NCBI GenBank assembly: GCA_032622095.1
Contig: CP136068.1
Span: 49,098,443 to 49,162,442, forward strand
Length of the DNA stretch: 64,000 nt
DNA from: Siphonodentalium dalli
Lineage: Eukaryota > Mollusca > Scaphopoda > Gadilida > Siphonodentaliidae
Reading direction: 5' to 3'
The position numbers and the translations under genes are program-made. The notes under the pieces are model-generated. The model saw only the letters and a program-made list of their open reading frames with translations, was not told where the DNA came from and did no database searches. Position 1 is the first letter of the stretch. Each line of letters opens with the position of its first letter. This document shows, in pieces, positions 13,024-38,936 of the stretch.

Positions 13024-14629
13024 ATAATTTAATATATTGTTTACATACATTTTATGATGGCATGACAAATCAAAAGTCTCTGAAAAATAAGGCTTTGTTT
13101 ACTTATAAATCTTGTTGCTTTGACATTTAATGGACCTCTGATATACACATGTTTGATATCATCATGCTTGGGAAAGGCTACCCTCTATGATCATATACAC
13201 AAAGTGTCCATTTAACCTAATCCGAAGACATACAAGAGTAACCAGATGGGACTCTGTCCAGAACATCATCAACACAACCGAATTAACAAGCTGTTGTGGA
13301 CCGAGAAGATTAGGTCTACTGAAAACAAACCCCTGGTGTGAGAACCAATTCTTCCAATTTTCCTTATTGTAGCTCTTTCCCATCTTGCAAATCTAAAAAT
13401 ATTGCCAAAGTGGTGTGGTGTGGTGGTGTGTTCATAGTTACACTTAATGGACTACAGCAACATACATGTATATTTTTAACTCCTTTTAAAGACATTTGTA
13501 TTAGTAGGCCCTTTCCCCTGGCCCAAAATTTTCATCACACTCCTAAGTGTACTATACCCAATGTCCCAAATCGCATATTAATAGCCACACCACCCATGTA
13601 CCACAGTATCTTCCACTGATTAAAACCAACACTACAACCAGTTCCAACAGTGAAAGACATTTTTATACACCAGATAATGCTAACCACTTGTGAACTATTT
13701 TGCAGAATTTTAATTAATTCTCTTCAAGGATAAACACATTGGCAATTATTGCCTTTTACTGTTTATTCTGAAATATATTGAAGTGGACATCACTAAAAGC
13801 CACATGATTGATTATGTCTGGTTATGTCACAATTATGTTGAGTTGTCAAATAGCATGTGTTCCTATTCAGATTAATACTACCAGTATTTAATATGTAGAC
13901 CTATGTTAGCCAGTGAAAGTTCATTAGGAATATCTCATGAATTTAGTGTTGTATAGAAGAACATTTAAATTTCCTTTGTTGTTGGTGGGGTATGAAAACT
14001 TCTCAATTGCTTATTTTACCTGCAGATTTAACATGACATTTTCATCGCAGAACTTCTGTATACGATATAAATTTTATGCAGTGTCAATAAAAATATTAAC
14101 TTAACCATTCAATTTTTTAAACATAAAAGCACAATTGCAATTCTTGACTTTAATAGTTTATATATTTCCTTTTTTTTTATTCTTTTTTTTTTTTATTAGA
14201 AAATAATTATAATCTGAACAATATAATAATCACAACGAACGTACCAGTTTGGCTTACACTCAAATTTTATATACTTACTAGCGGATGTACCCGGCGTCTA
14301 AAATTCTAAAAAATAATTTAAGAAATTCTGTGTATCGGGCAGATACATGTATATACCCTTGTCAGATGCCACTATTGGAGGATCCTGAAAAGCCATGTTC
14401 TACAGAGTGTGTTTTCTATTATCTCAGAAGAAACTATATTTGACTGCACACTGTGACTAGCTCACTATATGAATGCCCTCATTCCCGTTCCCATATAATT
14501 ATGACAGTTGAGAAGATATAATTGTTCAAGGGACTTAATTCGTCACCATTTGTCGAGGTTGTGAAATTCACAAACACCAAAAACTCCTTGTAACGAATTA
14601 TGGAGATGACTATATATAACTATAACTAT

Positions 14630-16520
14630 TGGCGACTAAATCCTGATCCAGATGACTCCAAATGTGGTGTCTTTAACCCACATGATTTGATTCCTCATAT
14701 CATTGGAGAGGAATGTGTATGAATTTGGGGAAATTAGTGACAACATATTGTATCCGCTTTTGTGCCCCTCCCCTCCCCATTCATGACTCTAAACTTTTAC
14801 CACTTTTGACACAGTTAAACCACATCCATTAGACTCCTGATATCATAGAGATGATCATATATAAGTTTGGTGGTAATTCTAATGTATCAAATTTAGTGCC
14901 CCCCCCCCATCTCTTACCCAAACGGCACCAATATGGCTTCTTTAAATCACACAATTAGATTCCTTCTGTCATGGAGAAGAATATATCAATTTGGTGGAAA
15001 TCATCACTACAAAAAGGTTGTTTTAATAAATTGTGGTGCCCCTCTGTGCACCCCTGACTCGAATGGTGGAGATGATTATGTTTATTAAAGTTCAGTGGAA
15101 ATCGGCGATAAAAATATATCATCATTTTTGCTCCCCATTTTTCTGCGCCTGACACCAACATTATTTTAGATAATATCAACCCACACCAGCTGCCCGCACC
15201 ATTATTTTCCTCCTAAAAATTTACCGTTGTTAGACCCATTTGGTTATATAAAACACAGACAAACATATGCAAATATTTGCCCTAAATGTGGCTTTTTTAA
15301 CCCCCACAATTTGATTCCTCATATCATTCGAGAAGAACTTGCATGAATTTGGTCGATATTGATGCTAAACATATTTTAATCGGTTTGGTGTTCCTCCTCC
15401 CCTCCTTACTCAAGTGGCAACAGTTTTGACATCTTTAAACCACAAAATTAGACTTATTATTAAGATGAATATATATAAAATTGGTGTAAATCAGCGTCTG
15501 AACAAATTTGTATCATCTCTCACCCAAACGTCACCAATTTGGCATCTTTATATCACACGATTAGATTCCTTGTAACAGGGAGATGAATGTGTATCAATTT
15601 GATGGAAATCGACACTAAAAATATTTTTTATCAATTTTGGTGTCCCTCTTCCCCTCCATGCACCCCTGACTCGAACAGCCCCACTTTTGACATCATTAAA
15701 CCACACAATTAGGCTCCTGATGTCATGGAGATGATTATGTATAAGTTTGTTAGTAATCAGCAACTAAACAAATTCTTATCAAATTTAGTGCCCCCTCATC
15801 TCTCACCCAAACGGCACCAATTTGGCATCCTTATATCACACGATTAGATTCCTTGTAACATGGAGATGAATGTGTATCAATTTGGTGGAAATCTGCACTA
15901 AAAATCATTTTATCAATTTTGATGTCCCTCTCCCCCCCCCTGACTCGGAACGGCGCGACTTTTTACATCTTTAAACCACATCATTGGATTCCTCATATCA
16001 TGGATATGATATTTATGTATAAGTCCCTCCCCCTTTTCTTGTGTGTCGAATGACACCACTTTTGACAGCTATTTGATGGTAATCGGCGACTAAACAAATT
16101 CTTATCAAATTTAGCCCCCACCCCATCGTTCATCCAAATGGCACCAATCACACAATTAGATTACTTGTAACATGGAGAAGAATGGGTATCAATTCAGATC
16201 AATTTGGTGGAAATCAGCGCTAAAGATATTTTTATCAATTTTGTTGCCTCTCTCCCCTTTTGTGCCCCCTGACTCGAACGGCGCCACTTTTAACATCTTT
16301 AAACCACATCGTTGGATTCCTCATATCATGGATATGAATATGTATAAGTTTGGTGGAAATTGGCGACAAAAACATTTACTGCCCCTCCCCCTTTTCTTTC
16401 CCTGACAACAACAGCTTCACTTTAGAAAATTCTAACCTGTACCTTTATTTTCCTCATAAAAGGTTACCCCTGTTAGACCCCTTTGGTGCCATCTGGATGG
16501 TCCCCTGTCACTTTCTATAG
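14630..16520 (+). repeat. Degenerate ~140 bp tandem array, segment 1 (plus polarity)
   Basis: Units contain GTGCCCCTCCCC, then TGACTCGAACGGC, ACCACTTTTGACATC, TTTAAACCACA, GATTCCTCATATCATGGA and TTTGGTGGAAATCGGCGAC, repeating roughly every 135-150 bp. Around a dozen decayed copies are visible. Open frames within it are short and not conserved. Confidence 0.7.
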
Positions 16521-16902
16521 AACACAGACAGACACTGAGCAAGACAAATATAGATATACTGTACTAGTAGATACATACCGGTATGTATAGTGGAACAGAC
16601 TACTTTCATGCTCATCATATTTATTTGAAACAAGTGAAATTTGACTTTTGGTTCTGATACATTGTTTTACAGATTACAACTGAAAGATAGAGATTCATAA
16701 TTATGTTAGACTGAGTTTAGCTATTATCATACCCATATTTAAGATGATAGAAGTATGAGTCAATGGGGAGCTTTAAAATCTTTGAGCATATATATTAAAG
16801 TGCGTCCAACATGGACAATGATATCTTTCAATGACTGTAATGTGAAATGCAGTATTATGACCAAGGACAATGTGTAAGCGTGTACTGTAGGTACAGCAGT
16901 TA

Positions 16903-17114
16903 CAGTAATGCCCTAAGTAATCACTCCTTAACTACAGCAGAATTATGGGTAGCTTTTCAGGATTTAGTCGGAAATATGGCTTGTTGCCATTCATTGGAAA
17001 TCTCGCCCTGAGAGCTTTCCGATGAATGGCAACAAGCCATATTTCCGACTAAATCCTGAAAAGTTACCCATAATTCTACTGTGGTTAAGGAGTCGATTAC
17101 TTAGGGCATTACTG
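16903..17114. mobile_element. TA-flanked long-hairpin MITE, copy 1
   Basis: Nearly the whole element is one palindrome. It runs CAGTAATGCCCTAAGTAATC, a CAGCAGAATTATGGGTA block, AGGATTTAGTCGGAAATATG and GGCTTGTTGCCATTC, then the mirror image, with arms of about 97 bp. TA precedes the left end; the right flank has lost it. Related copies start at 19705, 27363, 38719, 47304 and 52997. Confidence 0.8.
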
Positions 17115-17550
17115 CAGCTAGCCATCTTTTGCCTGACTGTTGGCTGCTGATACCACCTCTGGCGCATATTAGCATATTAAAGCTTGGACTGTGAAACTTA
17201 TTGACTGTAATGTGAAATGCAGTGTAACAATGTGCAGCATGTTAGGTATAAAGTAGAGTATAGCGATTGGCTGTTAATTGGCTGATCTGTCATTGGGTAG
17301 ATAGCTGCTGTGGGGTTCACTTATTCACATTGGTGTCAGAGGTAGCAGACTGAGCGGATATTTTACTGAATGCAGTTGTCAATTATCAGTATCACTTATG
17401 GAATTAAAGGCAGTGATGACTTTTATTTTCTTTCTGTTTTTTTATTTGGAATTTCTGCATCAGTAGGATTATAAACTGGGCACAAACTTGAATTTGTCTT
17501 GAAGACAGTGACTTTCTATGGAATTTATGTTGTGAGGATTGTTATTCCAA

Positions 17551-17732
17551 ATGTCTGATCAGCAGAATATTAACTTGGCACCAGCCACCGTGACCTACTC
17601 AGATGAGTTGATGGACATGCACGCGGATGATTTACAAAATTGTTTCTTTTCTGTGAATGGAAACATAGTTTGTTCCTCCACAGATGACAAGGATGATCAT
17701 CCACTCGTCTATAACTATTCAGATACATCTAG
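17551..17732 (+). CDS. Duplicated start-codon exon, copy 1
   Basis: This is a 60-codon open exon plus two bases, beginning MSDQQNINLAPATVTYSDEL and ending in NYSDTS. It is followed at 17733 by a consensus donor GTAAGT, leaving phase 2. The start is chosen because ATG with the same CCAAATGTCTG context opens all four copies. A pyrimidine tract ending in CAG at about 17463 could be an acceptor, so the full exon may include about 87 bases of leader. The peptide is acidic with interspersed hydrophobic residues (DELMDMHADDLQNCFF), without signal peptide or membrane segment. I do not recognise the family. An acidic activation-domain-like role is only a guess. No downstream partner exon is identifiable before segment 2 begins. 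Confidence 0.6.
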
Positions 17733-18017
17733 GTAAGTCAGGGATGGAAACGCATGCTTTTTGATCGGTGTGTTTTTTACCTTAAAAAATATTTGCGGGG
17801 GTCAGGGGGCTCTATTGAAATCACTTGTTCGTCCCTGATGATTCTGAATGAAATTTTCAGTGATAGTTAATGAAATAAAAATAATAATGGTTTGGGATGC
17901 CCGTCTGGTTTGAATATGGGTGTGGTCTAGACATTTTTTGTCGGATGAACTTTATGTACTTATAATTTGCTGATTATTTTGGTTTCCAGATTATAGATTG
18001 ATTTCTTGTGTGTCCAA

Positions 18018-19338
18018 CAGGGGGGAGTCTGGAAAAAAATTGCACATATAGGGCCCAAAAAGTTTTTTTCCGACCCCAAGGGACCCACCACCCCATTTGT
18101 GCAAAAAAAACCAAACAAATTTCCTCAAAAAATTTGGGGACCCAACCCCCCTTTCTCATGTTTTTATCAAAATTTCAGATTTTTTTTTTAGCCGTTCTTC
18201 AATAACTGTGTTAACTGCCTTTCAATCCCATTCCACTATAATTTTTTTGGTGCAAACTCTTGCTGTGTACCATTAAGACTCAAGCAATAACATGCTTAAT
18301 TGGTAAACACAGATCATAAAAACGAAAAATAAACTGTATTTCCAGGTATTTCCTGGTGTTTTCAGTATCTAACAACAATAATAAAGCATTGTGTAGGTAC
18401 ACTATATGTCACAAATCGCCCTAGACCCCATTATAGCCTTAATATATCGAGTGTGTTGTGTCTGACAGAGAACACTGGCCAGTGTAAATAGTGGTAAACG
18501 GGTCAGGGGTTCCACAATTATTTGTGCATGACCAAAGAACTCTTTAGTCTTATCCACCGGGGTGGGGTGGGGAGGGAATTGTTTTTGGTTAGGTATACAC
18601 CTAGATATATGGTTATTATATCCCCCCGATATTAGTCGGCGGGTATGTAGTTGACGTATCGAGCCGTCCGTGCGTCATTCCGTACAAACATTTTGCATTA
18701 TAACTCAAGAGTCGGTTGTCATATTTTGATGCCCTATGCCATGGTGACAGACCAGAAATGGGGAACGAATATGCATAATATCACGGGTTGTGACCATCAA
18801 TGCCTACCAGATTTATGGGCCCAGTTCGACTTTATGAAATTCAGTCCGTACAAAGTTTTTGCAATATAAGTTAAGTGTCAGTTGTCGAATTTTGATGTGG
18901 TTTGGTATGGTGATAGACCAGAATGATAGGAGAAGGATGTATGCACATATTACTTTATATCACAGGTTTCGCCTATCAATGCATACCAGAGTTACCGGCC
19001 TTGTTCCATCCGTAAACACGTTTTGCATTATTATAACTCAACCATGGGTTAAGTTTCCTGAACGCTATTACGGTGGTCCACTGTGAAGTGGGCCGGGATC
19101 CTGTGAAATCCAGAATGTTGCTAAATCTGAGGCTAAAGAGTCACTATAGCTGCATATATAGCCCTATACCAACAAGCATGGTACTAACATGCTTACAAAC
19201 AACATTACATGGTCAGTACTTGTAAATTGTTTGAAATAAAGCCATTTTGGAAAAAAATTACAAGCACGATTTTTTCGGCCTCTGGACCACCCACCCACCC
19301 CGGCCCTATATACGGAATTTTTTTGCAGATTCCCCCCT
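18018..19338. mobile_element. hAT-type element, 1.32 kb, in the intron of segment 1
   Basis: The ends AGGGGGGAGTCTGGAAAAAA and the inverse AGGGGGGAATCTGCAAAAAA are flanked by GTGTCCAA at 18010-18017 and 19339-19346. The paralogous intron of segment 3 has a single uninterrupted GTGTCCAA at 28739-28746, giving a clean empty site. Inside, from about 18600, sits a hairpin (CCCGATATTAGTCGGCGGG) followed by CCGTCCGTGCGTC and a tandem-like body, another repeat class. Open frames at 17974-18205 on both strands come from the TIR. Confidence 0.85.
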
Positions 19339-19704
19339 GTGTCCAAGCTAATATTTCAGCCATAGGTTATCAGATCTTGATGTAATTTGGTAAGGATGTT
19401 CAATACAATGACAGCTTTAATGTTTTGATGAAAACTTTTTGTCCATGATTTCCACCAAACTTTTGTGTAGGCTTCTCCATGATACGAGGACTCAGTGTTA
19501 AATGAAGTTACCAAAGTGACAGCTACCTCTATGATCATATACACAAAGTGTCCATTTAACCTAATCCGAATCCTTACAAGCAATATAACTTCCGCCCACG
19601 ATTCTGGGCATAAAGTCTGTTATAGAAGAGTAACTGGATGGGAATCGGTCCAGAACAGCATCAATCCCACTGAATTCACAAGCTGTTGTGAACCGAGAAG
19701 ACTA

Positions 19705-19917
19705 CAGTAATGCTCTAATTAATCGACCTCTTAACCAAAGCAGAATTATGGGTAACTTTTCAGGATTTAGTCGGAAATATGGCTTGTTGCCATTCATCGG
19801 AAAGCTCTCGGGGAGAGCTTTCCGATGAATGGCAACAAGCCATATTTCCGACTAAATCCTGAAAAGTTACCCATAATTCTGCTTTGGTTAAGAGGTCGAT
19901 TAATTAGAGCATTACTG
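19705..19917. mobile_element. TA-flanked long-hairpin MITE, copy 2
   Basis: Same family as 16903. TA lies at 19703-19704 and 19918-19919. The arms are almost identical (about 100 bp each), so it is a young or gene-converted hairpin. Segment 1 lacks it at the paralogous site near 13320-13335. Confidence 0.85.
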
Positions 19918-20597
19918 TATAACAAACCCCTGATATGAGAACCATTCGTTTAAATTTTCCTTATTGTTGCTCTTCCCCACCATGACTCTTGAAAATCTAA
20001 AGATATTGCCCAAGTGATATCGGTGTGTTCATACATGTAGTCTCACTTAATGGACAACAGCAACATATATTTTTGACTCCTCTTAAAGACGTGTTTGTAT
20101 TGGTAGGGTTTCCGCAAGAGGGACCCTTTCCACTGGCCCAAAATTTCATCCCACACATAAATGTACTATACCCAATGTCCCAAATGGCATATTAATAGCC
20201 ACACCACCCATGTACTGCAGTATCTCACTGATTAAAACCAATACTTTAACCAGCTCCTACAGTGAAAGATATTTTCTTGGCCTGCTAATGATAACCACTT
20301 GTGAACTATTTTGCAGAATTTTAAATAATTCTCTTCAAGGATAAACACATTGGCAATTATTGCCTTTTACTGTATAATCTGAAATATATCAAAGTTGACA
20401 TCACAAAATTTCTAAAAGCTACAAGATTGATTTATGTGTCTGGTTATGTTGCAATTTATGTTGTCAAATTATATGTGTTCCTATTCTGATTTATACTATT
20501 TAATATGTAGACCAGATGTTATAGCCAGTGAAAGTTCATTAGGAATATTTCAGAGTACATGTATAAACATGTTATCATGAATTTAGTGTTCTATAGC

Positions 20598-21284
20598 TAC
20601 AGGTCTCAGCTGCCCGGTGAGAACTGGTTCGCATTAGGTTTTGGACACAGTGCGCACTCGTCAATGTCACGGTTCATTTCAGATCGAGAAAATATGGCAT
20701 CACAGATATAAAGTGGCATTTTGCACAGACGAAAGTGAGATTAATCTATATTTGATGCTACGGTTATTTTTCAAATGACTCAATGCTATCGATTCAATAG
20801 TTTATTTGATGTTTTAGCTGAAAACTGTGCGCTTGTTGTCATATGTTAAAGACAGCGATCACTCAATGCATTTTCAATGGAAACTTGTCCGACTAATTAC
20901 ATTTAATACACACCAACCGCGTGTGTGTTTTTCGATTGTACGGCCAGTTTCCTATATCTCCTCACTCACAGACCACCGATCGTGGTTATATTTCACGTCT
21001 AAGTCACAAGAGAAGACTTTTGAAATGAGTCGAAAATGCTACGGTGCCCCTCTGATCTTATGTTATCATTTTTATTCGCATCCGATCAAATGCCCCAGTT
21101 CCGATCAAATGCCTTGCCATTTAACTGCAGATTTTGCAGCAGTAAACATATTCTTCGCAGGTATTTCTGCAATGTCCTGTCCATTTGTTGTGAAATTGCA
21201 AGCGTGCACCGTGACATTGACGAATGCGCACCGTGTCCAAAACTGAATGCGAACCAGTTCTCACGGGGCAGCTGAGACCCCGTG
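20598..21284. mobile_element. 687 bp TIR element with 5 bp TSD
   Basis: The inverted ends contain GGTCTCAGCTGCCC and GAGAACTGGTTCGCATT, then TTTTGGACAC and GTCAATGTCACGGT, about 75 bp in all. ATAGC is repeated at 20593-20597 and 21285-21289. Segment 1 has an uninterrupted ATAGA at 13954-13958. The 139-codon open frame 20827-21246 lies wholly inside and runs into the right TIR. It shows no transposase motif and I do not call it a gene. Confidence 0.8.
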
Positions 21285-22079
21285 ATAGCAGAACATTTAA
21301 ATTTCCTTTGTTGTTGGTGGCAGTATGAAAAATTCTCAATCGCTTATTTTACCTGCAGATTTAACTTGACATTTTTATCTTGTAATTTCTGTTTACATTA
21401 TCAATTTTATACACTGCCAATGAAAATAATAATGTAACCATTCAATTTGTTAAAAATAAACGCACAATTGCGATTCTTGAATCTTGACTTTAATAGTTTA
21501 TATACTAACCCGGCATCTGTTCTAAAATTCTAAAAAAAAATTAAAGAAATGCTATGTATCGGGCAGATATACCCTTCTCAGATGCCAGTATTGGAGGATC
21601 CTGAAAAGTCATGTGCTGCAGAGTGTGTTTTCTATTATCTCAGAAGATACTATATTTGACTGCACACTGTGACCACTATTTTTGAACAGGCTTTCTATAC
21701 ATTTCCATCTCTCTTGACATATTTTATCTTTTTTTTTGTGGAAAATATCTTGAATGGGACAGACTCACTTGTATTATAATACACAAGTCATTCTAACATG
21801 CCATCCTATGACGATTCAAGGTCCCTCATTCAAGAATATAATTATGTATCTCTTAAATAGAATGATAAATATACTTTTAATGCTTTCTTCTATGTATGTG
21901 TTTTTGCTAGCTCACTATATATCATTCCCGTTCCCATATAATTATGACAGTTGAGAAGATATAATTGTTTAAGGGACTTAATTTGGTCACCATTTGTCGA
22001 GGTTGTGAAATTCACGAACGCCAAAAACTCCTATAATGAATTATGGAGATGACTTATATATATATAAATAATATATAAC

Positions 22080-23740
22080 TATAACTATCGGCAACTAAAA
22101 TATTCTTATCAATGTTGGTGCCCCTCCTCTGTCCATCCCTGATCCAAACGGCACCAAATGTGGTGTCTTTAACGCACATGATTTGATTCCTCGTATCATT
22201 GGAGAAGAACGTGTATGAATTTGGTGGAAATTAGCGATAACATATTGTATTCACTTTTTTGCCCCTCCCCATTCATGACTCGAACGGCACCACTTTTGAC
22301 ATAGTTAAACCACGTCCATTAGACGTGATTATGTATGTTTGGTGGTAATCGGCAACTAAATTTGTATGAAATTTAGTGCCCCCCCCCCCCCATCTCTTAC
22401 CCAAACAGCACCAATATGGCTTCTTTAAATCACACAATTAGATTCCTTGTGTCATGGTGGAAATTGACAGTACAAAAACCAAAAAGATTGTTGGTGCCCC
22501 TCCATGCACCTCTGACTCGAACCGCGCCATATGATGGAGATGATTATGTTTATTAAAGTTTGGTGGAAATCGGCGAAAAACATATATCATTTTTGCTTCC
22601 CCACCCCATTTTTCTGCCGCTCACACCAACAGTGTTATTTTCGATAATATCAACCCACACCATTATTTTCCTCGTAAAAAAATTATCGCTGTTAGACCCA
22701 TATGGTGCCATCAAGATGGTCCTCGTGAAGTTATATAGAACACAGACATATGCAACCATAGGCACCATATGTGGCATTTTTAAGCCACACAATTTCATTC
22801 CTCGTATCATTCGAGAAGAATGTGTATGAATTTGGTCGAAATTGGCACTTAACTTATTTTAATCGGTTTTAGTGTTCCTCCTCCCCTTCCTGTCGCTTAC
22901 TCAAGTGGCGACAGATTTGACATCTTTAAACCACAAAATTGGACTCATTATGAAGATGAATATATATAAAATTGGTGGAAATCAGCGTCTGAAGAAATTT
23001 TGTATCAAATTTAGTGCCCCCCCCCCCATCTCTCACCCAAGTTGGCATATTTAAACCACATGATTAGATTTTTCATATCACAAAGAAGAATATGTATAAA
23101 TTGGGTTAAAATCAGCACTAAAAATATCTCTTATCAATTTTGGTGTCCCTCTCCCCCTCCTGCACCCCTTACTCTAACAGCCCCACTTTTGACATCATTT
23201 AACCACACAATTAGACTCCTGATATCATGGAGATGATTATGTATAAGTTTGTTGGTAATCATGCAGTGACTAAAAAATTCTTATCAAATTTAGTGCCCCC
23301 CCCCCCCTCATCTGTTACCCAAAAGGCACCAATTTGGCATCTTTATATCATACCTTTAGATTCCTTGTAACATGGAGAAGAAGGTATCAATTTGGTGGAA
23401 TTCTGTGCTAAAAATAGTTTTATCAATTTTGATGCCCCTCTCTCCTTCAGTACACCCCTGACTTGAATGATGCCACTTTTGGTGGTAATCGGTGGTAATC
23501 GGCAACGAAACAAATTCTTATCAAATCAATTTGGTGGAATTAAATCAGCGCTAAAAATATTTTTATAAATTATGGTGCCCCTCTCACCCATCGCACCACT
23601 GACTCGAATGGCGCCACTTTTGAAAGCTTTATACCACACCATTAGATTCCTCATATAATGGATATGATTATTTATAAGTTTGGTGGAAATTGGTGACCCC
23701 TTTGGTGCCATCTGGATGCCCTGTGAATTTCTATAGAACA
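22080..23740 (+). repeat. Degenerate ~140 bp tandem array, segment 2 (plus polarity)
   Basis: Same unit as 14630-16520 and same orientation. It includes several C-rich runs after GTGCC. A mirror pair of open frames at 22553-22829 is an artefact of the repeat. Confidence 0.7.
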
Positions 23741-23963
23741 CAGACAGACAGCAAGACAAATACAGATATAGATATAGTGGAACAGACTACTTTCATGCTC
23801 ATCATATTTATTTGAAACAAGTCATTAGACTTTTGGCTCGGATACATTGTTATGCAGATTACAACTAAAAGTGAGAGATTCATAATTATGTTAGACTGAG
23901 TTAGCTATAATCATCATGCTCATATTTAAGATGATAGAAGTATGAGTCAATGAGGTTGTTTAA

Positions 23964-24202
23964 CCCTTTGAGTGCCAGGGGCCGATCTCATCGGCCCTAA
24001 ACCTACAAAATAAGTCTGTTCAAGAATATAAGAATATATTAATAAAATTGTAAAAAAAAAAATTAAAAAAACATAAAAAATTGTTAAGCCAATGCATTCT
24101 CTTATATATGCGAGGCGACCTATGGTCGACTCGCATATATAAGAGAATGCATTGGCACAGGGTATATGGGTTGATACAAAAATCGACCTGGCACTCAAAG
24201 GG
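23964..24202. mobile_element. piggyBac-type TTAA MITE, copy 1
   Basis: TTAA flanks both sides (23960-23963, 24203-24206). The TIR is CCCTTTGAGTGCCAGG. The centre is a near-perfect hairpin of about 66 bp built on CCAATGCATTCTCTTATATA, ending in GCGAGGCGACC. Segment 1 has a single TTAA at 16773-16776 in the paralogous position, so this insertion followed the duplication. Confidence 0.85.
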
Positions 24203-24719: not shown

Positions 24720-24895
24720 ATGTCTGGTCAACAGGAGATTAGCTTGGCACCAGCCACCGTGACCTACTCGGATGAGTTCATGGACATACATGTACACGTG
24801 GATGATTTACAAAATTCTTTCTTTTCTGTGAATGGAAACATAGTTTGTTCCTCCACAGATCATCCAATTGTCTACAACTTTTCGGATACATCTAG
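24720..24895 (+). CDS. Duplicated start-codon exon, copy 2
   Basis: This exon has 58 codons plus two bases, beginning MSGQQEISLAPATVTYSDEF and ending NFSDTS, with a GTAAGT donor at 24896 (phase 2). Compared with the others it has a two-codon insertion (an extra V-H after the DIH motif) and lacks four codons of the acidic DDxDD patch. Both changes keep the frame, which argues for coding constraint. The start and leader match the other copies; a possible acceptor AG lies at 24617-24618. No family is recognised. Confidence 0.6.
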
Positions 24896-25189
24896 GTAAG
24901 TTAGGGATGGAAAAAACTGCTTTTTGATTGGGTGTTTTTTAACTTGAAAAAATATTTGTGGGGGGTCAGCGGGGACTATTGAAATCACTTGTGTGCATTT
25001 GTCCATCCCAGATTATTTCTGAAGGAGATTTTCAGTGATAGTTAATGAAATAAAAATAATATTGGTTTGGGATGCCAGTCAGGTTTGATTATGGGTGCGG
25101 TCTGGACTTTTTTTGTCGGATGAACTTTGTGTACTTATAATTTGCTGATTATTTTGGTTTTCAGATTATAGATTGATTTCTTGTGCGTC

Positions 25190-26640
25190 GAAGCTAATAT
25201 ATCAGCCATAGGTTATCAGATCTCGATGTAACTTGGTAAGGATGTTCAACATAATGACAGCTTTAATGTTTAGATTTGTTGATGCTCATTTAATACAATG
25301 AAGGAAATAATGGAGTAGTTTTAAAGTTCAAAAGTCAGAGCCCAGGGATGGGTGGAAATTGGAGGGGCACCAAAATTGATGAAGGTATGGGGGGGGACCA
25401 GAATTGATGAACATGTTTTTAAGTTTCATAAGTCAAGAGTCAGCAGGGATTTGGAGAAATGGGAGGGGCACCAACTTTGATGAAAACTTTTTGTCCATGA
25501 TTTCCACCAAACTTTTGTGTAGGCTTCTCCATGATACGAGGACTCAGTGTTAAATGAAGTTACCAAAGTGACAGCATCGTAATCATAATTTCATAAGTCA
25601 GAGACAGCATGATTGGAAAGATTGTGATGGACACCAATATTGATGAAAATATTTTGTCTACGATTTCCACTTTTTCTTAAACTTATATTGTCTGAATGCT
25701 AAAGTGACGACATTGGAGTCAGATGTACCAAAATTGATGATTTGTATTTATGATTTCCAGCAAAAGGCATCATTAGGGGAATATATAATATCGTGGTCTT
25801 AAGTTGCCATAATGACATTCTGTGGTTAGATCGGACCACCAAAATTAATGAAAATTGTTTTGTCGCTGATTTTCATGAAACTTGTACAGATATTTACCGT
25901 GTATTATAGTTAGGGCTGTAAAAATACACTTGGTCATGATACGATACAAATTGAAATACATGATCGATGATATGATACATAACACAATACACTAAATTAG
26001 TGTTTTCAAATAATTTACCGCCTGGTTTATCAGAACCGACATGTTAATAACTGGAGATAGAGCTCATTTTTAACTAAAGTCCAGTTTAATAGTTAGCTAC
26101 CGGTACATGTAGATGAGTGAAATATACGTAATAGACATGTAAACTTGATATAAAATTGCATGTTTAATATTTTGCTCTTTTACACATGCCTGCCTAAAGA
26201 AATTAATTGATTCTTTGTATCATGATACACATGTTGTGATACGACACATGTATTATTTGAAAGTGTATCACGATACATTAAATTCACAATGAAACATTAC
26301 AGCCCTAGTATTAGTGCCCTCTCAGTCAGGGTTGGGGTTCTTGGGGGAACAAAAAACTTGCTAAAATAAAAATAATAGAATATATATAAAAATAATAGTT
26401 TGTCACCAATTTCCATCACAATTGAATACAGTATATAGAAAGCTGCGTGATCCAGAATTCAATGATGTGGTTCAAGGTTGCCAAAGTTGTACTGTTGTAG
26501 ATATTGATACTTTATAATAGGGATATGATAGGGATATGTCTTGGGGTGCCCTGGCGATTCAAAATTGACAAAACTTAAAAGTCAATCATTGTTTTCCTCT
26601 AAAAAATTTGTTATGTAGACATCTCCATGCATGATACAAA
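25190..26640 (-). repeat. Degenerate ~140 bp repeat array downstream of exon 2 (minus polarity)
   Basis: Units here read as the reverse complement of the upstream array: TTTCCACCAAACTTTTGTGT, CTCCATGATACGAGGA, GGGGCACCAAAATTGATGAA. Thus each complete segment has the exon between oppositely oriented arrays. The array is followed by a stretch shared with segments 3 and 4 (26640-27040). Confidence 0.65.
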
Positions 26641-27047
26641 TAGGAATCTAATGTTGTGGTTTAGACTCACGAAAGTGATGCCGTCCAACTCAGGATGTGG
26701 CGGGGTTCAGGTGGGTTCCAAAAAGTTAGGCATTCATGAAAATATAAGTGACTATCATTCTCCCCTAAACTCGCCCACCCTGCCAGATATTTTTTTCAAT
26801 ACTTTTCCTTTTTTTGTGTGGATAAATTTACAAGTGATTTTAATGCAATATCATGCAGCATATACCATACCATGAGTTCATACTGCACCACGAGTTCATA
26901 CTACTACAATCAGTATTTAAATGGCCAGTTCAATTCTCAAGCATGTAACATTGTTTGGCCGAGATTATCCTGTCTACTGATCTTTAGTTTATAGCAATAA
27001 TTCATATCTTCAAAATTTGAAGTTACACTGTTGTTGTATGGTTTTAA

Positions 27048-27267
27048 CCCTTTGAGTGCCAGGTCCGATTTTTTTATTGACCCATATACCCTGTGCCAAT
27101 GCATTCTCTTATATATGCGAGTCGACCATAGGTCGCCTCGCATATATAAGAGAATGCATTGGCCTAACCCAAAAAACAAAACAAAAAATTCATTTTTTTA
27201 TTATTTTTAGGGCACTCTACAGACCATAAATTAGGGCCGATGAGATCGGCCCCTGGCACTGAAAGGG
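27048..27267. mobile_element. piggyBac-type TTAA MITE, copy 2
   Basis: Bounded by TTAA at 27044-27047 and 27268-27271; TIR CCCTTTGAGTGCCAGG/CCCTTTCAGTGCCAGG. It has the same central hairpin as copy 1, in the other orientation. The fifth segment keeps the empty TTAA at 35605-35608. Confidence 0.8.
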
Positions 27268-27362
27268 TTAAAGACCACAAATAAGAGAGTCAATAATTCC
27301 AAGGACAACAGTACTCAATGTGATATCAATGAGATAATGCTATAGTACTACACTGCTACCTA

Positions 27363-27479
27363 CAGTAATGCCCTAAGTAATCGACCCCTTAACCACAGCA
27401 GAATTATGGGTAACTAAATCCTGAAAAGTTACCCATAATTATGCTGTGGTTAAGGGGTCGATTACTTAGGGCATTACTG
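27363..27479. mobile_element. TA-flanked hairpin MITE, copy 3 (internally deleted)
   Basis: 117 bp, TA on both sides (27361-27362, 27480-27481). It keeps the outer arms to AATTATGGGTAACT and the AAATCCTGAAAAGTTACCC return arm. The GTCGGAAATATGG centre is lost. Confidence 0.8.
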
Positions 27480-28057
27480 TATACCACTGTACTTCTCCAA
27501 GCACATGATGGGACACAAATCATTACTCATTGAATGCAATGTCTGTAGTTATAATGTCTGTAGTTATAATTAGTGGGCTATCTGACATAAGCAAAACATG
27601 AACCAGGGGATCTCCCAGGTAGACATACTGTAATCATTAATTCACCACTTTGCCTGTTAATAAGTCAGGTTGGTCTCCATCTCATTGCCCATTTATAATA
27701 AGTCAGGTGTTCACAACAGTTTTATTCTCATTTATACTCAGTTTACTGTGTGGAGCAGAGTGACATCTTCACATGTTCAAGATCAAGCTCTAATTTAATT
27801 AAACTTTTGGTTAATTACTTTCTTTGTGTTTCTATGTTCAGAATTTCTGCATCAGTAGGATTATAAGCTCAGCACAGATTAAACATAAATTTGACTTGGA
27901 TGCAGTTACTTTTTATTGAGTTTATGTTGTGAGGGATTATTATTACAAATGTGTGGATCTGAACAGTAGGTTATAAGCTCACTGGGCACAGGCTGAACTT
28001 ACATTAGGAGACATTGACTTTCTAAGGAGTTTATGTTGTGAGGGATTTTTATTCCAA

Positions 28058-28239
28058 ATGTCTGGTCAGCAGAATATTAGCTTGGCATCAGCCACCGTGA
28101 CCTACTCGGATGAGTTGATGGACATGCACGCGGATCATTTACAAAATTCTTTCTTTTCTGTGAATGGAAACAGAGTTTGTTCCTCCACAGATGACCAGGA
28201 CGATCATCCACTCGTCTACAACTTTTCAGATACATCTAG
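28058..28239 (+). CDS. Duplicated start-codon exon, copy 3
   Basis: 60 codons plus two bases, starting MSGQQNISLASATVTYSDEL and ending NFSDTS. The GTAAGT donor is at 28240, phase 2 as in the other copies. Differences from copy 1 include D-to-G at residue 3, P-to-S at 11, D-to-H at 27, C-to-S at 31 and I-to-R at 39; all are missense, none is a stop. Leader duplication is visible upstream (two TATAAGCTCA...GGCACAG blocks, 27864-27990). The neighbouring intron resembles the other segments for about 500 bases. Function unknown. Confidence 0.6.
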
Positions 28240-28739
28240 GTAAGTTAGGGATGATTTTTGATAGTGTGTTTTTTACCTTGAAAAAATATTTGCGGGCGTT
28301 AGGGGAGGGGACTATTGAAATCACTTGTGTCAATCTTAGTGTGCATTTGTTCGTCCCAGATGATTTCTGAATGAGATTTTCAGTGATAGTTAATGAAATA
28401 AAAATAATATTGGTTTGGGATGCTGGTCAGGTTTGAATATGGGTGCGGTCTGGACTTTTTTGTCGGATGGATTTTATCCCTAACTTTTTGGAGCCCACCT
28501 GAATAATCTGCTGAATTTTTTGTTTGTTTGAATATGGGTGCGGTCAGTACTTTTTTGTCTATGGATTATTCTTTTTGTCTATTGATTTCTTTTTTTTTTT
28601 TAAATATGGGTGTGGTCTGTACTTTTTTGTCGGATGGACAACTTTTTGGAGCCCACCTGAACCCCACCTGAATAATCTGCTGGATTATCTAATGGAGCCC
28701 CATTATTTTGGTTTCCAGATTATAGATTGATTTCTTGTG

Positions 28740-30310
28740 TGTCCAAGCTAATATTTCAGCCATAGGTTATCAGATCTCAATGGAATTTGGTAAGGATGTT
28801 CAACAAAATGACAGCTTTAATGTTTAGATTTGTAGACTCTCATTTAATACAATGAAGGAAATAATGGAGTGGTTTTAAAGTTCAAAAGTCAGAGAGCCCA
28901 GGGATGGGTGGAAATTGGAGCGGAACCAAAATTTATTAAGGTAGTCATTGGACGGGACCAGAATTGATGAACATCTTTTTAAGTTTCATAAGTCAAGAGT
29001 CATCAGGGATTTGGAGAAGTGGGAGGGGAACCAAAATTTATGAAAACTTTTTGTCCATGATTTCCACCAAACTTTTGTGTAGCCTTCTCCATGAAGTTAC
29101 CAAAGTGACAGCATCAGAATCAGGGAGGCGCCAAAATTCATGTCAGAACATGCTTCATAATTTCAAGTCAGAGTTAACATGAATGGGAAGAATTGGGACT
29201 GGCACCAATATTGATGTAAATGTTTTGTCCACAATTTCTACCTTTTCTTAAACTTATATTGTCTGATTGCTAAAGTGACGACATTGGAGTCAGGGGCACC
29301 AAAATTGATCATTTTGTTTGATTTCCAACAATAGGCATTTCCGCGATTCGGTCAATATATAATATCATGATCTTAAGTTGTAGTGATGACATATCTGTTT
29401 CAGGGATGGTAGATCAGGACAGGGGGATTCAGTGGTTAGATCGGTTCATCAAAATAAATGAAAATTGTTTTGTTGCTGATTTCCTTCTAACTCTATATAT
29501 ACTGTAACCACTGGCGATTCCCCATGTTGAACTGTCTAGGGGTCAGTAAGAATCCCCAGGGTCGGTGTTTCTCTGAGTTCTAAAGGACTAAAGGACCTCT
29601 GGAGTTTTCAGAGAAAGAACATGACCATTTAAAAGAAATACATGTACATGTACTTTATATCAGAATTAAAGCCAAGATACATGAACAATGTACACGCCAA
29701 GAGAAATTCCACAGCTAACAGTGATTTGGTTTTTGGGATTCACACCCTCAGCTTTAACTGTCAAGCTTGGAGCCAAAATGAGCTAAAAGTAGACTCCAGG
29801 ATGAATATAACAGACCTGGAGTCATGCTTCAGTTTAATGCACCAACAGTGGTGTTGTAAATGTCTGATGAAGATATATCTTGTCACATATGACAAGATTG
29901 AGTATTCTCTCCTGTGCAGTGTCACACTGTTTGGTAGCATGAAAAATGAGAGAAGGAACACGCAGTCTGAGTCACTTCAGATGAGATAAATCCATCCCTG
30001 TCACAATACTAAGAATCTAATGGTTAATAATAATTTATATTTGATCAAACATTCTTGTCACTAATTTCCATGAAACTTGTGTACACATACATGTATATAT
30101 ACCGTCTATTAGTGCCCTCTCAGTCAGATTTGGGGTTCTTGGCTTCCTAAAATAAAAACAACTGTTTGTTACCAATTTCCATAAAAATTTAATTTCGTCT
30201 ACAGATATATTGTAGCTGCGTGATCAGGAATTTAATGGTGTGGTTCAAGGTTGTCACAGTTGTACCGTCGTAGTTATTGATAGTTAGGGATAGGTCATGG
30301 GGAGGCCCCT
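28740..30310 (-). repeat. Degenerate ~140 bp repeat array downstream of exon 3 (minus polarity)
   Basis: Collinear with 25190-26530. A 115-codon open frame at 29642-29989 has no match in the paralogous region of segment 2, no domain that I recognise, and an overlapping opposite-strand frame; I treat it as chance. Confidence 0.6.
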
Positions 30311-30819
30311 AAGACATCAAAATTGACAAAACTAGTAAGTCGTAATTGTTTTCCTCTAAAAAGTTTTGATTATGTAGACATCTCCATGCATGACACAAGT
30401 AGGAATCTAATTTGTGGTTTAGACTTTTGAAAGTGGAGCCGTCCAACTCAGGATATGGTGGGGATCTCAGGTTGGCTCCAAAAAGATTAAAGAAAATTTA
30501 AGTGATTATCATTCTCAGTGAGAATTTTTCACCTAAACTCACCCACTCTGCCAGATATTTAAAAAACAATTTTTTTAATACTTTTCGTTTTTTTTTATGG
30601 TTAAATTTACAAGTTATTTTTTTAACGCAGTATCATGCAGCATATACCATACCATGAGTTCATACTACTGCAATCAGTATGTAAATGCCCAGTTCAATTC
30701 TCAAGTACATGTAAACATGTGGCCAAGATTATCATGTCTACTGATCAATAGTTAGCAAAAATTCATATCTTCAAAATTTGAAGTTACACTGTTGTAACAG
30801 TGTTGTTGTATGGATTTAA

Positions 30820-31201
30820 CCCTTTCAGTGCCAGGTCCGATTTTTGTATCAACCCATATACCCTGTGCCAATGCATTCTCTTATATATGCGAGTCGACCA
30901 TAAAGGTCGCCTCACATATATAAAAGAATGCATTGGCCTAACAAATTTTCATCATTTGTTATTATTTTTTACAATTTTTTACAATTTTAATAATTTTTTC
31001 TTATATTCTTTAACAGACTTATTTTGTAGGTTTTTCATGGGCTTCAAATTTATTACTATGAATACTTGGTGATAGTTTTGAGTTATAACATGCCCCTAAG
31101 GTTTTATCCAGTTTTTAAATTCGCTATAGCATGCTTAAGCATACCACAAAATATGTTGTTTTTTTTTTTTTTTTAGGGCCGATTTTACAGACCGTAAAGG
31201 G
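30820..31201. mobile_element. piggyBac-type TTAA MITE, copy 3
   Basis: TTAA at 30816-30819 and 31202-31205. It occupies the same paralogous site as copy 2, so it was probably inherited by duplication. It is longer because of extra T-rich sequence on the right; the central hairpin has a few mismatches. Confidence 0.75.
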
Positions 31202-31801
31202 TTAAAGACCACAAATAAGAGAGTCAATAATTCCAATCACAACAGTACTCAATGTGAAATCAATGGGATAATGCTGTAGTACTACACTACTGCCTATACT
31301 ACTTCTCCGAGCACATGGTGGGACACAAATCATTACTCTGACATTGAATGCAAACGTCTGAGCAAAACAAGAACCAGGGGATCTCCCAGGTGGGACTCAA
31401 TCATTTATTCACCACTCTGTTTAATAATAAGTCAGGTGGGCAAGTATAATGCTGTGTAAACACCAGATTTATTCTCATTTATACTCAGTTTACCTTGCGG
31501 AGGCAGAGTGACATATTCACATATTCAGCCATCAAGCTCTAATTTAATTAAATTTTGGTCAACGACTTTGTTTTTCTATGTTCAGAATTTCTGCATCAGT
31601 AAGATTATAAGCGGAGTGCAGACTAAACTTAAATTTGTCTTGGATGCAGTTACTTTCTATTGAATTTATGTTGTGATGGATTTTTATTACAAATGTGTTG
31701 ATCTGAACAGTAGGATATAAGCTCACTGGGCACAGACTAAATTTGCATTAGGAGACAGTGACTTTCTAAGGAGTTTATGTTGTGAGAGATTTTTATTCCA
31801 A

Positions 31802-31983
31802 ATGTCTGGTCAGCAGGATATTAACTTGGCATCAGCCGCCGTGACCTACTCGGATGAATTGATGGATATACACGTGGACGATTTAAAAAATTGTTTCTTT
31901 TCTGTGAATGGAAACATAGTTTGTTCCTCCACAGATGACCAGGACGATCATCCACTCGTCTATAACTTTTCAGATACATCTAG
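31802..31983 (+). CDS. Duplicated start-codon exon, copy 4
   Basis: 60 codons plus two bases, starting MSGQQDINLASAAVTYSDEL and ending NFSDTS, with a GTAAGT donor at 31984 in phase 2. The middle reads DIHVDDLKNCFFSVNG. The leader (GACAGTGACTTTCTAAGGAG just upstream) is nearly the same as in copy 3. A possible acceptor CAG ends at about 31599. The following intron is unusual: it carries the 51-unit minisatellite. No recognisable coding exon lies downstream on this strand within the window, so any shared 3' part of the gene is beyond the window or not recognisable by eye. Confidence 0.6.
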
Positions 31984-32321
31984 GTAAGTTAGGGATGGAA
32001 ACACATGCTTTTTGATAGGGTGTTTTTTAACCCCCCCCCCATTTGGATCCCAGAATGCAACAGAATTCAAACTTTTACAATGGAAGGGGAAGAACTCTAT
32101 CTTTAATATATAGAGTTATTCCCACTTCATTGAAAATAATACTGTTTTTTACTGCAATCTAGATTACAAAACGCATTGGCAACTCAACAAAAACAACATG
32201 TCCTCAGTTTATTACACCGGATAAATTGATAATACAATGTTTTGGTATATAATATGGCATATATTTGATATAATGTAATCTGGGGGTTCGATTTAAATGA
32301 CATAAAAATAATATTGGTTTG

Positions 32322-34055
32322 GGATGCCGGTCAGGTTTGAATATGGGTGCGGTCTGGATGCCGGTCAGGTTTGAATATGGGTGCGGTCTGGATGCCGGTC
32401 AGGTTTGAATATGGGTGCGGTCTGGATGCCGGTCAGGTTTGAATATGGGTGCGGTTTGGATGCCGGTCAGGTTTGAATATGGGTGCGGTCTGGATGCCGG
32501 TCAGGTTTGAATATGGGTGCGGTTTGGATGCCGGTCAGGTTTGAATATGGGTGCGGTTTGGATGCCGGTCAGGTTTGAATATGGGTGCGGTCTGGATGCC
32601 GGTCAGGTTTGAATATGGGTGCGGTCTGGATGCCGGTCAGGTTTGAATATGGGTGCGGTTTGGATGCCGGTCAGGTTTGAATATGGGTGCGGTTTGGATG
32701 CCGGTCAGGTTTGAATATGGGTGCGGTCTGGATGCCGGTCAGGTTTGAATATGGGTGCGGTTTGGATGCCGGTCAGGTTTGAATATGGGTGCGGTCTGGA
32801 TGCCGGTCAGGTTTGAATATGGGTGCGGTTTGGATGCCGGTCAGGTTTGAATATGGGTGCGGTTTGGATGCCGGTCAGGTTTGAATATGGGTGCGGTCTG
32901 GATGCCGGTCAGGTTTGAATATGGGTGCGGTCTGGATGCCGGTCAGGTTTGAATATGGGTGCGGTCTGGATGCCGGTCAGGTTTGAATATGGGTGCGGTC
33001 TGGATGCCGGTCAGGTTTGAATATGGGTGCGGTCTGGATGCCGGTCAGGTTTGAATATGGGTGCGGTTTGGATGCCGGTCAGGTTTGAATATGGGTGCGG
33101 TCTGGATGCCGGTCAGGTTTGAATATGGGTGCGGTTTGGATGCCGGTCAGGTTTGAATATGGGTGCGGTTTGGATGCCGGTCAGGTTTGAATATGGGTGC
33201 GGTTTGGATGCCGGTCAGGTTTGAATATGGGTGCGGTCTGGATGCCGGTCAGGTTTGATTATGGGTGCGGTTTGGATGCCGGTCAGGTTTGAATATGGGT
33301 GCGGTCTGGATGCCGGTCAGGTTTGAATATGGGTGCGGTCTGGATGCCGGTCAGGTTTGAATATGGGTGCGGTCTGGATGCCGGTCAGGTTTGAATATGG
33401 GTGCGGTTTGGATGCCGGTCAGGTTTGAATATGGGTGCGGTCTGGATGCCGGTCAGGTTTGAATATGGGTGCGGTTTGGATGCCGGTCAGGTTTGAATAT
33501 GGGTGCGGTCTGGATGCCGGTCAGGTTTGAATATGGGTGCGGTTTGGATGCCGGTCAGGTTTGAATATGGGTGCGGTTTGGATGCCGGTCAGGTTTGAAT
33601 ATGGGTGCGGTTTGGATGCCGGTCAGGTTTGAATATGGGTGCGGTTTGGATGCCGGTCAGGTTTGAATATGGGTGCGGTCTGGATGCCGGTCAGGTTTGA
33701 ATATGGGTGCGGTTTGGATGCCGGTCAGGTTTGAATATGGGTGCGGTTTGGATGCCGGTCAGGTTTGAATATGGGTGCGGTTTGGATGCCGGTCAGGTTT
33801 GAATATGGGTGCGGTCTGGATGCCGGTCAGGTTTGAATATGGGTGCGGTTTGGATGCCGGTCAGGTTTGAATATGGGTGCGGTTTGGATGCCGGTCAGGT
33901 TTGAATATGGGTGCGGTTTGGATGCCGGTCAGGTTTGAATATGGGTGCGGTTTGGATGCCGGTCAGGTTTGATTATGGGTGCGGTCTGGATGCCGGTCAG
34001 GTTTGATTATGGGTGCGGTCTGGATGCCGGTCAGGTTTGAATATGGGTGCGGTTT
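32322..34055. repeat. Minisatellite, 51 copies of a 34 bp unit
   Basis: The unit starts GGATGCCGGTCAGGTTTGAA and ends TATGGGTGCGGTYT. Length is exactly 51 x 34 = 1734 bases with no indels. Variation is confined almost wholly to one C/T site near the unit end and to three units with GATT for GAAT. The period is not a multiple of three and no long frame spans it. The single-copy ancestor is visible at the same place in segments 1 (about 17890), 2 (about 25067) and 3 (about 28407). Confidence 0.97.
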
Positions 34056-34379
34056 GGACATTTTTGTTGGATGAACTTAGTGTACTTATAATTTGCTGAT
34101 AATTTTTGGTTAGATTGATTTCTGTTGCGTCCAAATAATATATCAGCCATAGGTTATCAGATCAGGGCTTGGGGAGTCACCAGGGCACCAAAATTGACAA
34201 AACATAACAAGTCATTGTTTTCCTCTAAAAAGTACATGTACATACGTAGACATATGATACAGAGAGAGAGATAAGAAGGAATCAATGTTGTGGTTTAAAC
34301 TTGTGTGGGGCTGTCCGAGTCAGGTATGGAGCAGGGGTAAGGTTGTCACCAAAAAGGTAGGGATTCGGGAAATGGTATT

Positions 34380-34640
34380 TTTATATGCCTGTACAAAAAA
34401 AACTGGACTTATTATGTTATTGAATTCAATCTATTCACTTTTACGTTCCAGATGATAACTTTAGATAATCTCAACTGAATGGAATAAAACAATTTATGTG
34501 AGTTTACTAGCACAAAATACAGGTCAAGTTAAATTTTTGGGTTTCATCCGATAATTTTCACCAGAGTTTTGGCCTTTTGTTGGAATCACCACGGGCATAT
34601 TTTGCCATGCCCAGCGCTGCTCTTGTTTTTAATAACTAAT
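34380..34640 (+). repeat. Dispersed repeat ending GCTCTTGTT
   Basis: Shares with 40340-40735 the blocks TTATTATGTTATTGAATT-like, GATGATAACTTTAG, GTGAGTTTACTAGCACAA, ATACAGGTCAAGTT, TTTTCACCAGAGTT and a GCTCTTGTT end. Non-coding dispersed element. Confidence 0.6.
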
Positions 34641-34642
34641 TT

Positions 34643-35045
34643 TTAGCTGAACTTGAAGTCAAGTTTGAGCTAATCGCCATGAGTTGGCGACATGGTGTCC
34701 ATCGTCTGTCCATGAATGTGTGCGTCTGTCCATCAGTTTCCTTTGGCACACCCTACAGGCCACATTTCTCATCCGATTGTCACCAAACTTCATTATGGAT
34801 CCCTGCAGTGACCTCTATTGGAGTATAGAGTCAGAGGTCAGAGCCAGAGAGTCTGAGCCAGGTATGGGGGAATTGAGGGACACAAAATTTATGAATGTGG
34901 ACATTGGGGGAAGTGCACCATTTATAGCTCAATGGGGAGTCCATTTAGTAAAGAAAGTGTTAAACAAACACTTTATTTCTTTATTTTGTCACTCTATACA
35001 GGGCCTGGCAAAATTATTGACTATAGTTATATTTGAATTATAATA
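34643..35045 (+). repeat. Stem-loop/CCGTC-class repeat
   Basis: It begins with an imperfect hairpin (AGCTGAACTTGAAGTCAAGTTTGAGCT area), then GTCCATCGTCTGTCC and CACCAAACTTCATTATGGATC. Same class as 41975-42910. The 119-codon open frame 34684-35043 lies inside this repeat and is not supported as a gene. Confidence 0.6.
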
Positions 35046-35272
35046 TCTCCTTCTATAATCATAGGAAGCATACCAAAACACATTTGGGCAATTCTCTAAA
35101 AGAATAAATATATATACGGTACAAAGTGATCGCTATGCATATTTGTATGCATTGAAATTACAAATGAAGGATGTCGATAATTTCCAGACAACCTGTGATC
35201 ACCTGGACTGCAGATCGCGTTTTCTGCGACAGCTGGGAAAAACTATGTGTAACTACTAACATGTTTTTGTTT

Positions 35273-35460
35273 GCAAAGTGATACCCTAATTGGTCAAATG
35301 ATACCCAAAATGGTCGAGTCATTTGATGCAGGTACAGTATTTTTGAGGTCAAATGTATCATAATAAACGTTTTTGATAAAAGGTACCATTTGATTCAAAA
35401 AGATATCAGATAACTCGGCCATCTTGGGTATCAGTTGACCAATTAGGGTATCACTTTGTA
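35273..35460. repeat. Foldback repeat
   Basis: GCAAAGTGATACCCTAATTG and its inverse near 35437-35458, then TGATACCC/GGGTATCA and GGTCGAGT/ACTCGGCC pairs, give two arms of about 55 bp. Overlapping minus frames are artefacts. Confidence 0.65.
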
Positions 35461-35519
35461 TGGTATCACTTGGCTCGGGTATCACTTGACTGTAAGCCTT
35501 CAAACCCTCATTGGAGCTT

Positions 35520-35930
35520 ACCACAAAACAGCCTGTCTACTCATCTATAAGAAAACAATCATATCTTTAAAATTTGAAGTTTCAAACACTATGGGTGTGT
35601 GGCTTTAAAGACCACTTGTGATACACAAACAAAACAAACAAGAGATCCAATAATTCAGAGGACAAAAGTACTGAATATATAAATGTCAATTGGGTATTAA
35701 ATATGTGCAGGAGTATCACCTCAATATCCCACTCAATTTAACACGGACAATAATTAAACACTGTCTGGAGTCTGATGGGTAAGCATGCTGTGTACCTCAA
35801 CAGGTAGTAAGTATACTGAGTTACTGTGGGGAGTGACATAATCATTCTCATATCAAGTTCAACTTGAACTTTTAGACTTGGATGCAGTGACTTTCTTTGA
35901 AGTTTTTGTTGTGATGGATCTTAAAAATAC
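35520..35930 (+). repeat. Tandem segment 5 relic without the exon
   Basis: ATATCTTTAAAATTTGAAGT, TTTAAAGACCAC and GACTTGGATGCAGTGACTTT follow the leader landmarks of segments 3 and 4. After TTGTGATGGAT, where the other copies reach the ATG about 20 bases later, the sequence is unrelated. It retains an uninterrupted TTAA (35605-35608) where copies 2 and 3 of the TTAA MITE sit. Confidence 0.6.
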
Positions 35931-38718: not shown

Positions 38719-38934
38719 CAATAATGCCCTTATAAGTAATCGACTCCTTAAACATAGCAGAATTATGGGTCATTTTTCAGGATTTAGTCGGAAATATGGC
38801 TTGTTGCCATTCATCGGAAAGCTCTCCCTGAGAGCTTTCCGATGAATGGCAACTAGCCATATTTTCGACTAAATCCTGAAAAGTTACCCATAATTCTGCT
38901 GTGTTTAAGGAGTCGATTACTTAGGGCATTACTG
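38719..38934. mobile_element. TA-flanked long-hairpin MITE, copy 4
   Basis: TA at 38717-38718 and 38935-38936. A full-length palindrome with a few mismatches (for example AACTAGCC in the right arm where the left arm predicts AACAAGCC). Confidence 0.8.
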
Positions 38935-38936
38935 TA

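Follow-up and report, generated by a model that had tools for sequence, protein, structure and literature searches.

The 64,000-nucleotide stretch of the scaphopod mollusc Siphonodentalium dalli analysed here (the window; assembly GCA_032622095.1, contig CP136068.1, positions 49,098,443 to 49,162,442) holds a tandem array of four homologous start-codon exons in a single orientation, all four on the plus strand, which may be alternative 5' coding exons of one gene. The exons (E1 to E4) and their coordinates in the window are as follows.

17551-17732, plus strand: start-codon exon E1, 182 nt (60 codons + 2 nt), donor GTAAGT
24720-24895, plus strand: start-codon exon E2, 176 nt (58 codons + 2 nt)
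28058-28239, plus strand: start-codon exon E3, 182 nt (60 codons + 2 nt)
31802-31983, plus strand: start-codon exon E4, 182 nt (60 codons + 2 nt)

A preliminary description of this DNA had placed four exons of about 60 codons at 17551, 24720, 28058 and 31802; all were found there, and the common ATG context and phase-2 GTAAGT donor that it reported hold for every one of them. The bases directly before the ATG are (T/A)ATTCCAA in all four exons, all four end in phase 2, and in each the exon ends in CTAG followed by GTAAGT. Three share the same length (E1, E3 and E4), and E2 is set apart from the others by in-frame insertions or deletions (indels) of +6 and -12. The copies have diverged by 6-9%, and the E1, E2 and E3 peptides are identical to that of E4 at 85%, 86% and 85% of aligned positions, respectively. 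The 8-mer AGGTAAGT (AG + GTAAGT) occurs four times in the 64 kb, counting both strands, and each occurrence lies at the end of one of the four exons. With 1.55 occurrences expected, and four or more reached in 11 of 100 shuffles, the count by itself is unremarkable, but the placement at the four exon ends is remarkable. A tblastn search with the four peptides gave no fifth site in the window at E 1e-3 or better, and a second search for further exon copies, confined to matches weaker than E 1e-10, had a best value of E 0.31.

Self-comparison of the window showed that the exons are not isolated, the flanking DNA having been duplicated as well, in these units:

13180-19525, plus strand: unit U1 (class A), holding E1; boundary approximate
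19526-26308, plus strand: unit U2 (class A), holding E2; right boundary set at the start of U3
26309-30106, plus strand: unit U3 (class B), holding E3; 26309-27168 matches 30107-30942 at 75.9%
30107-34163, plus strand: unit U4 (class B), holding E4; its end is where likeness to the start of the next unit begins
34164-35922, plus strand: decayed fifth unit, with a unit start (34164-34372) and a leader relic (35861-35922)

U1 and U2 are longer and have far-upstream DNA in common (13230-13312 matches 19622-19704, and 13317-16786 matches 19913-23972 in pieces, at 77-89%), and their starts carry an identical joint sequence. U3 and U4 are shorter and share another upstream region, and the start of the fifth unit (34164-34356) matches 30292-30485 in U4 at 71%. 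U1-U4 have in common the leader over about 130 nt, the exon that follows it, and the intron (in pieces in U4) to just beyond a candidate acceptor. The array is thus a tandem segmental duplication comprising U1-U4 (about 13180-34163) and the decayed fifth unit, presumably caused by unequal crossing-over. As an account of the history of the locus, the earlier proposal of recently multiplied 5' ends is borne out by this duplication and by the joint shared at the U1 and U2 starts.

The leaders that precede the exons are part of the duplicated DNA.

17457-17550, plus strand: E1 leader, with CATCAG behind a pyrimidine-rich stretch (a possible acceptor), TATAAA and short upstream reading frames; its function is putative
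27853-28065, plus strand: tandem-duplicated leader before E3 (27853-27956 and 27964-28065, 76%)
31630-31696 and 31738-31805, plus strand: tandem-duplicated leader before E4, arranged like that of E3
35861-35922, plus strand: leader relic of the fifth unit, similar to the other leaders, with no exon

Leaders homologous to that of E1 precede E2, E3 and E4 and share with it the TATAAA or TATAAG and the possible acceptor; the likeness noted in the preliminary description amounts to 8-12% divergence over the 80 columns preceding the ATG. Upstream of about -130, the DNA of E1 and E2 differs from that of E3 and E4, so that no upstream exon is common to all four units. A gene body common to two units only may lie upstream of the exons; the upstream frames shared by two units number 16, span 27-54 codons and include no outlier. 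Behind the leader relic of the fifth unit, tblastn with the four peptides found no exon at E 1e-3. Such a loss fits the view that the 5' ends were multiplied without being used, one copy (perhaps E4, the nearest to any downstream exons) belonging to a working gene and the rest being young or gene-converted relics, a view that we hold to be doubtful and that the coding evidence given further below bears on from both sides.

Downstream, each donor is followed by a candidate acceptor, which would define these first introns:

17733-17989, plus strand: candidate first intron of U1, 257 nt, predicted acceptor TTTCCAG followed by ATTATAG
24896-25164, plus strand: candidate first intron of U2, 269 nt, predicted acceptor TTTTCAG followed by ATTATAG
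28240-28718, plus strand: candidate first intron of U3, 479 nt, predicted acceptor TTTCCAG followed by ATTATAG
31984-34113, plus strand: candidate first intron of U4, 2130 nt including a minisatellite, predicted acceptor altered to GGTTAG

The joined frames are predicted to end in SDTSRL and a stop in three units and in SRLISVASK and a stop in U4, after 62, 60, 62 and 68 residues in U1 to U4. The locus could therefore hold four compact two-exon genes, each made of a start exon and an acceptor 0.26-2.1 kb downstream, encoding 60-68 residues and carrying its 3' untranslated region in exon 2. Small genes are often duplicated whole in tandem, and the 48 nt around the candidate acceptor have changed more slowly than the intron between U1 and U2 (3/48 versus 34/203, p=0.045) and between U1 and U3 (2/48 versus 32/192, p=0.016), but not between U2 and U3 (5/48 versus 15/203, p=0.84). 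The candidate acceptor and stop are present in three of the four units, with GGTTAG in U4, and in U1 the candidate exon 2 is broken about 28 nt in by a 1.3-kb insert. Nor are acceptor-like AG sites rare: 44 of the 73 AG sites of U2 that were aligned to U3 are kept, and 5 of these 44, the candidate included, have at least 11 pyrimidines among 16 positions in both units. AATAAA stands 142, 154 and 158 nt after the exon in units 1-3, which is inside the proposed intron, and there is none within 700 nt in U4. On balance, we consider compact two-exon genes rather unlikely.

The same AATAAA signals, 142-158 nt past the exon in three of four units, would suit four single-exon genes of 59-61 residues, whose stop would be the TAA inside GTAAGT; read through the donor, all four frames end in SDTSR followed by this TAA. 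By our own estimate, however, a stop would fall by chance inside the full AGGTAAGT donor consensus in only about 1 in 1000 cases given a TAA, and we regard single-exon genes as very improbable.

Comparison of the units by open frame, by the proportions of nonsynonymous (pN) and synonymous (pS) differences and by tblastx revealed no coding exon, apart from the start exon, that all four have. The preliminary description's remark that no further conserved exon lies between the four therefore stands for coding exons common to all units, and gives way at the possible acceptor after each exon, altered in U4. Its doubt about four whole genes is supported where multi-exon genes are meant, this comparison having turned up no further coding exon shared by them all. 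Candidates for companion exons were defined as shared open phase-2 runs behind AG sites with at least 9 of 16 pyrimidines in both U2 and U3. The longest such runs measure 43 codons (25424/28984), 40 codons (25433/28993, in the same frame) and 35 codons (25804/29378). The first two were rejected, with pN at 0.070-0.079 against pS at 0.037-0.045, and their frame is partly the core of a short repeat found 5 times on the plus and 12 times on the minus strand (up to 2 mismatches); the 35-codon run carries an insertion difference between U2 and U3. A 27-codon candidate at 25220/28774 (pS 0.18, pN 0.057 over a 29-residue frame) was likewise set aside, having a stop in U1. Among four downstream frames of U2 and U3, pN exceeds pS in three, and the fourth (25212/28766), with 3 silent and 4 nonsynonymous differences, is closed in U1. 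The likeness of U4 stops at the equivalent of 25222 and that of U1 at the equivalent of 25575, so the candidate runs cannot be common to the four units.

Whole-frame Pfam scans of the plus strand from 4 to 64 kb detected no family. On the minus strand from 34 to 64 kb, the scan recovered an exon encoding a THAP domain (E 0.0022) plus a weak BED finger, and is therefore able to detect an exon. A scan for coding potential with a 2-bit floor ranked E3, E1, E4 and E2 at 17, 20, 41 and 56 of 319 segments and gave the THAP exon a score of -2 over its first 40 codons; at an 8-bit floor it yielded 2 segments, neither of them one of the four exons. The scan is too weak for a search for shared exons. 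No RNA families at gathering score and no tRNAs were found in the window.

The exons themselves may be under coding constraint. The ratio of nonsynonymous to synonymous substitution (dN/dS, NG86) in the six exon pairs is 0.40, 0.65, 0.42, 0.58, 0.23 and 0.56. Sixteen of the 26 inferred exon changes are nonsynonymous, compared with 19.1-20.8 expected, and the probability of such a deficit is 0.018, 0.050 or 0.109 at transition/transversion weights of 1, 2 or 4. In four of the six pairs (p 0.003-0.009), nonsynonymous sites have changed more slowly than silent and intron sites taken together; the pairs are not independent, and those with E4 rest on 42-52 intron positions. Both exon indels, of 6 and 12 nt, are multiples of three, and those in leader and intron measure 1, 5, 10 and 11 nt beside a 3 and a 12. 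Intron divergence has reached 8-21%, yet all four ATGs, frames and donors are intact. Neutral decay was simulated with 0.004 frame-breaking indels per nt on each branch, a rate that we chose from the intron gaps and on which the result depends, and left all four copies intact (ATG, GT and open frame) with P 0.0015-0.009. Across the settings used, P ranged from 0.17, with 4% substitutions per branch and indels set to zero, down to 0.00008, with 8% substitutions and an indel rate of 0.008 per nt. Judged from these comparisons of sequence, the exons have likely been retained as coding sequence by selection, with moderate statistical support.

DNA that carries what looks like the 5' end of one gene (leader, start exon and beginning of intron 1) has thus been duplicated into a tandem row of five or more units, and the exon is intact in four of them. 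It is tempting to speculate that each of these copies would serve as an alternative 5' coding exon picked by transcription or splicing. The phase-2 GTAAGT donor would join each copy to the same downstream exons, so that the proteins would differ slightly in their N-terminal 58-60 or so residues; these shared exons are postulated, none having been found in the window. Alternative 5' exons of one gene are the reading that we narrowly favour over relic 5' ends and compact genes, as possible rather than probable. The donor, donor phase and ATG context that all four exons share, the signs of coding constraint, and the failure to find a further coding exon in all units speak for it. That the array is an undescribed cluster of this kind, in which one gene has four selection-maintained versions of an N-terminal segment of about 60 residues, with two classes of upstream DNA and perhaps different expression, is slightly more doubtful.

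Several observations weigh against this reading. In three units, splicing to a possible acceptor 257-479 nt past the exon would end the frame. No Pfam family was detected on the plus strand, in three frames, from 34 to 64 kb, a scan that would miss exons without domains; that shared downstream exons went unrecognised there also speaks for compact genes. The constraint test fails in two of the six pairs (E3-E4, p=0.051; E2-E3, p=0.46), and without indels four intact copies are not rare in the simulation (P 0.03-0.17). The 16 upstream frames, used as a control, were picked because tblastx showed them open in two units, and many lie within repeats; they have pN/pS of 0.27-2.58, and 6 of the 16 lie at or below 0.65. 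The pN/pS ratio alone thus does not set the exon apart, and the argument from selection deserves less weight. Moreover, the four copies were noticed owing to their intactness, which inflates the tests. Within the exon, site patterns conflict (E2+E4, E2+E3 and E3+E4), which suggests gene conversion or recurrent change, and conversion or recurrence could keep unused copies alike.

Some of these points also favour multiplied 5' ends without use. Under that explanation, the match between nonsynonymous and silent-plus-intron change in E2-E3 and the flanking frames as low in pN/pS as the exon would be unsurprising, and the conflicting patterns, together with a stretch of 100 nt over which U1 and U2 are identical, suggest that the copies have exchanged sequence. 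The four intact ATGs, frames and donors at such intron divergence, improbable under neutrality at the chosen indel rate, and the two in-frame exon indels argue against it.

The peptide offers little guidance. The preliminary description had seen in it a possible activation or interaction segment; no profile match above cut-off, no Protein Data Bank match below E 0.25 and a mean AlphaFold confidence (pLDDT) of 55 lend this no support. The profile search that it had proposed gave no family: for none of the four peptides was there a Pfam match above the curated cut-off. A 29-residue match of two of the four to PF05989 (Chordopox_A35R; E 0.0017 and 0.0032, 18.8 and 17.8 bits versus a cut-off of 27) was taken as chance, the other two having no Pfam match at all. 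Searched by sequence, the Protein Data Bank gave best values of E 0.38 (E4 alone) and 0.25 (four-row profile), and NCBIfam gave two agmatine deiminase models, for E4 only (E 0.07-0.08, 12 bits). Phage records held no match to E4; 104 pattern matches in viral contigs and 23 in prokaryote genomes yielded 0 confirmed in either. AlphaFold with the four sequences produced no confident fold. The lack of a fold in the lone peptide would suit a segment of a larger protein, though the model was built on a thin alignment of four near-identical rows. In the open-licence literature searched, no paper on this peptide was met with, nor one on a molluscan cluster of this kind.

Other features of the window include repeats within the units and elements beyond them.

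32316-34058, within the U4 intron: 34-bp minisatellite, 51 copies, 98% alike
about 18018-19338, in U1: insert of 1.3 kb, with ends that are inverted (CAGGGGGGAGTCTG / CAGATTCCCCCCTG) and flanking repeat GTGTCCAA
14457-16400 in U1 and 21907-23690 in U2: diverged repeats in arrays, many of them spaced at about 130-150 nt
16901-17117, 19703-19919, 38717-38936 and 52994-53188: four copies of a long foldback element
36667-36771, minus strand: weak BED zinc-finger match (E 0.65), just past the decayed fifth unit
62864-63151, minus strand: THAP-domain protein, start exon (PF05485, 25.8 bits versus a cut-off of 23.9), close to the window's right end

The minisatellite is G-rich and C-poor on the plus strand (GC skew 0.46 in its 2-kb bin). 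A segment matching its repeat unit lies past the donor in U1-U3, with extra partial repeats in U3, and the presence of this segment in the other three units makes the birth of the minisatellite readable. The insert in U1, which we take to be hAT-like, is missing from U2 and U3 at the equivalent place. In the foldback copy at 19703, the arms are 100% complementary over 107 nt. The BED match is perhaps a transposase fragment. Taken together, the repeats of the window look like those of an animal, perhaps of a mollusc.

If the gene body is shared, the locus would show an alternative-first-exon cluster at an early stage of its formation: within 23 kb it has duplicated 5' ends whose exons differ by 6-9%, a member that has decayed, and upstream DNA of two classes. 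If the copies are relics or compact genes, it cautions instead against reading a choice of N-termini from intact tandem start exons alone.

Ordinary tandem segmental duplication followed by decay resembles the locus in its segmental units, two classes and truncated last unit, and differs in that no multi-exon coding body was found in a unit here and the four start exons are intact. Repeated 5' coding cassettes at an invertebrate locus are known from the chelicerate sDscam genes, whose tandem cassettes generally comprise two or four exons for immunoglobulin domains (PMC4835542), whereas the single short exon here has no recognised domain, and no gene body was found. The vertebrate UGT1 and GCNT2 loci are described as multiple-variable-first-exon clusters (PMC1885805, PMC3325998). 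The exons here differ in being about 60 codons long, with putative promoters and no constant exon found in the window; what they have in common with those clusters is the tandem arrangement of similar first exons, which are almost equal in length, share one reading frame and include pseudogene members. The single-orientation tandem array and the same donor phase that mark clusters of the UGT1 and Pcdh kind are both present.

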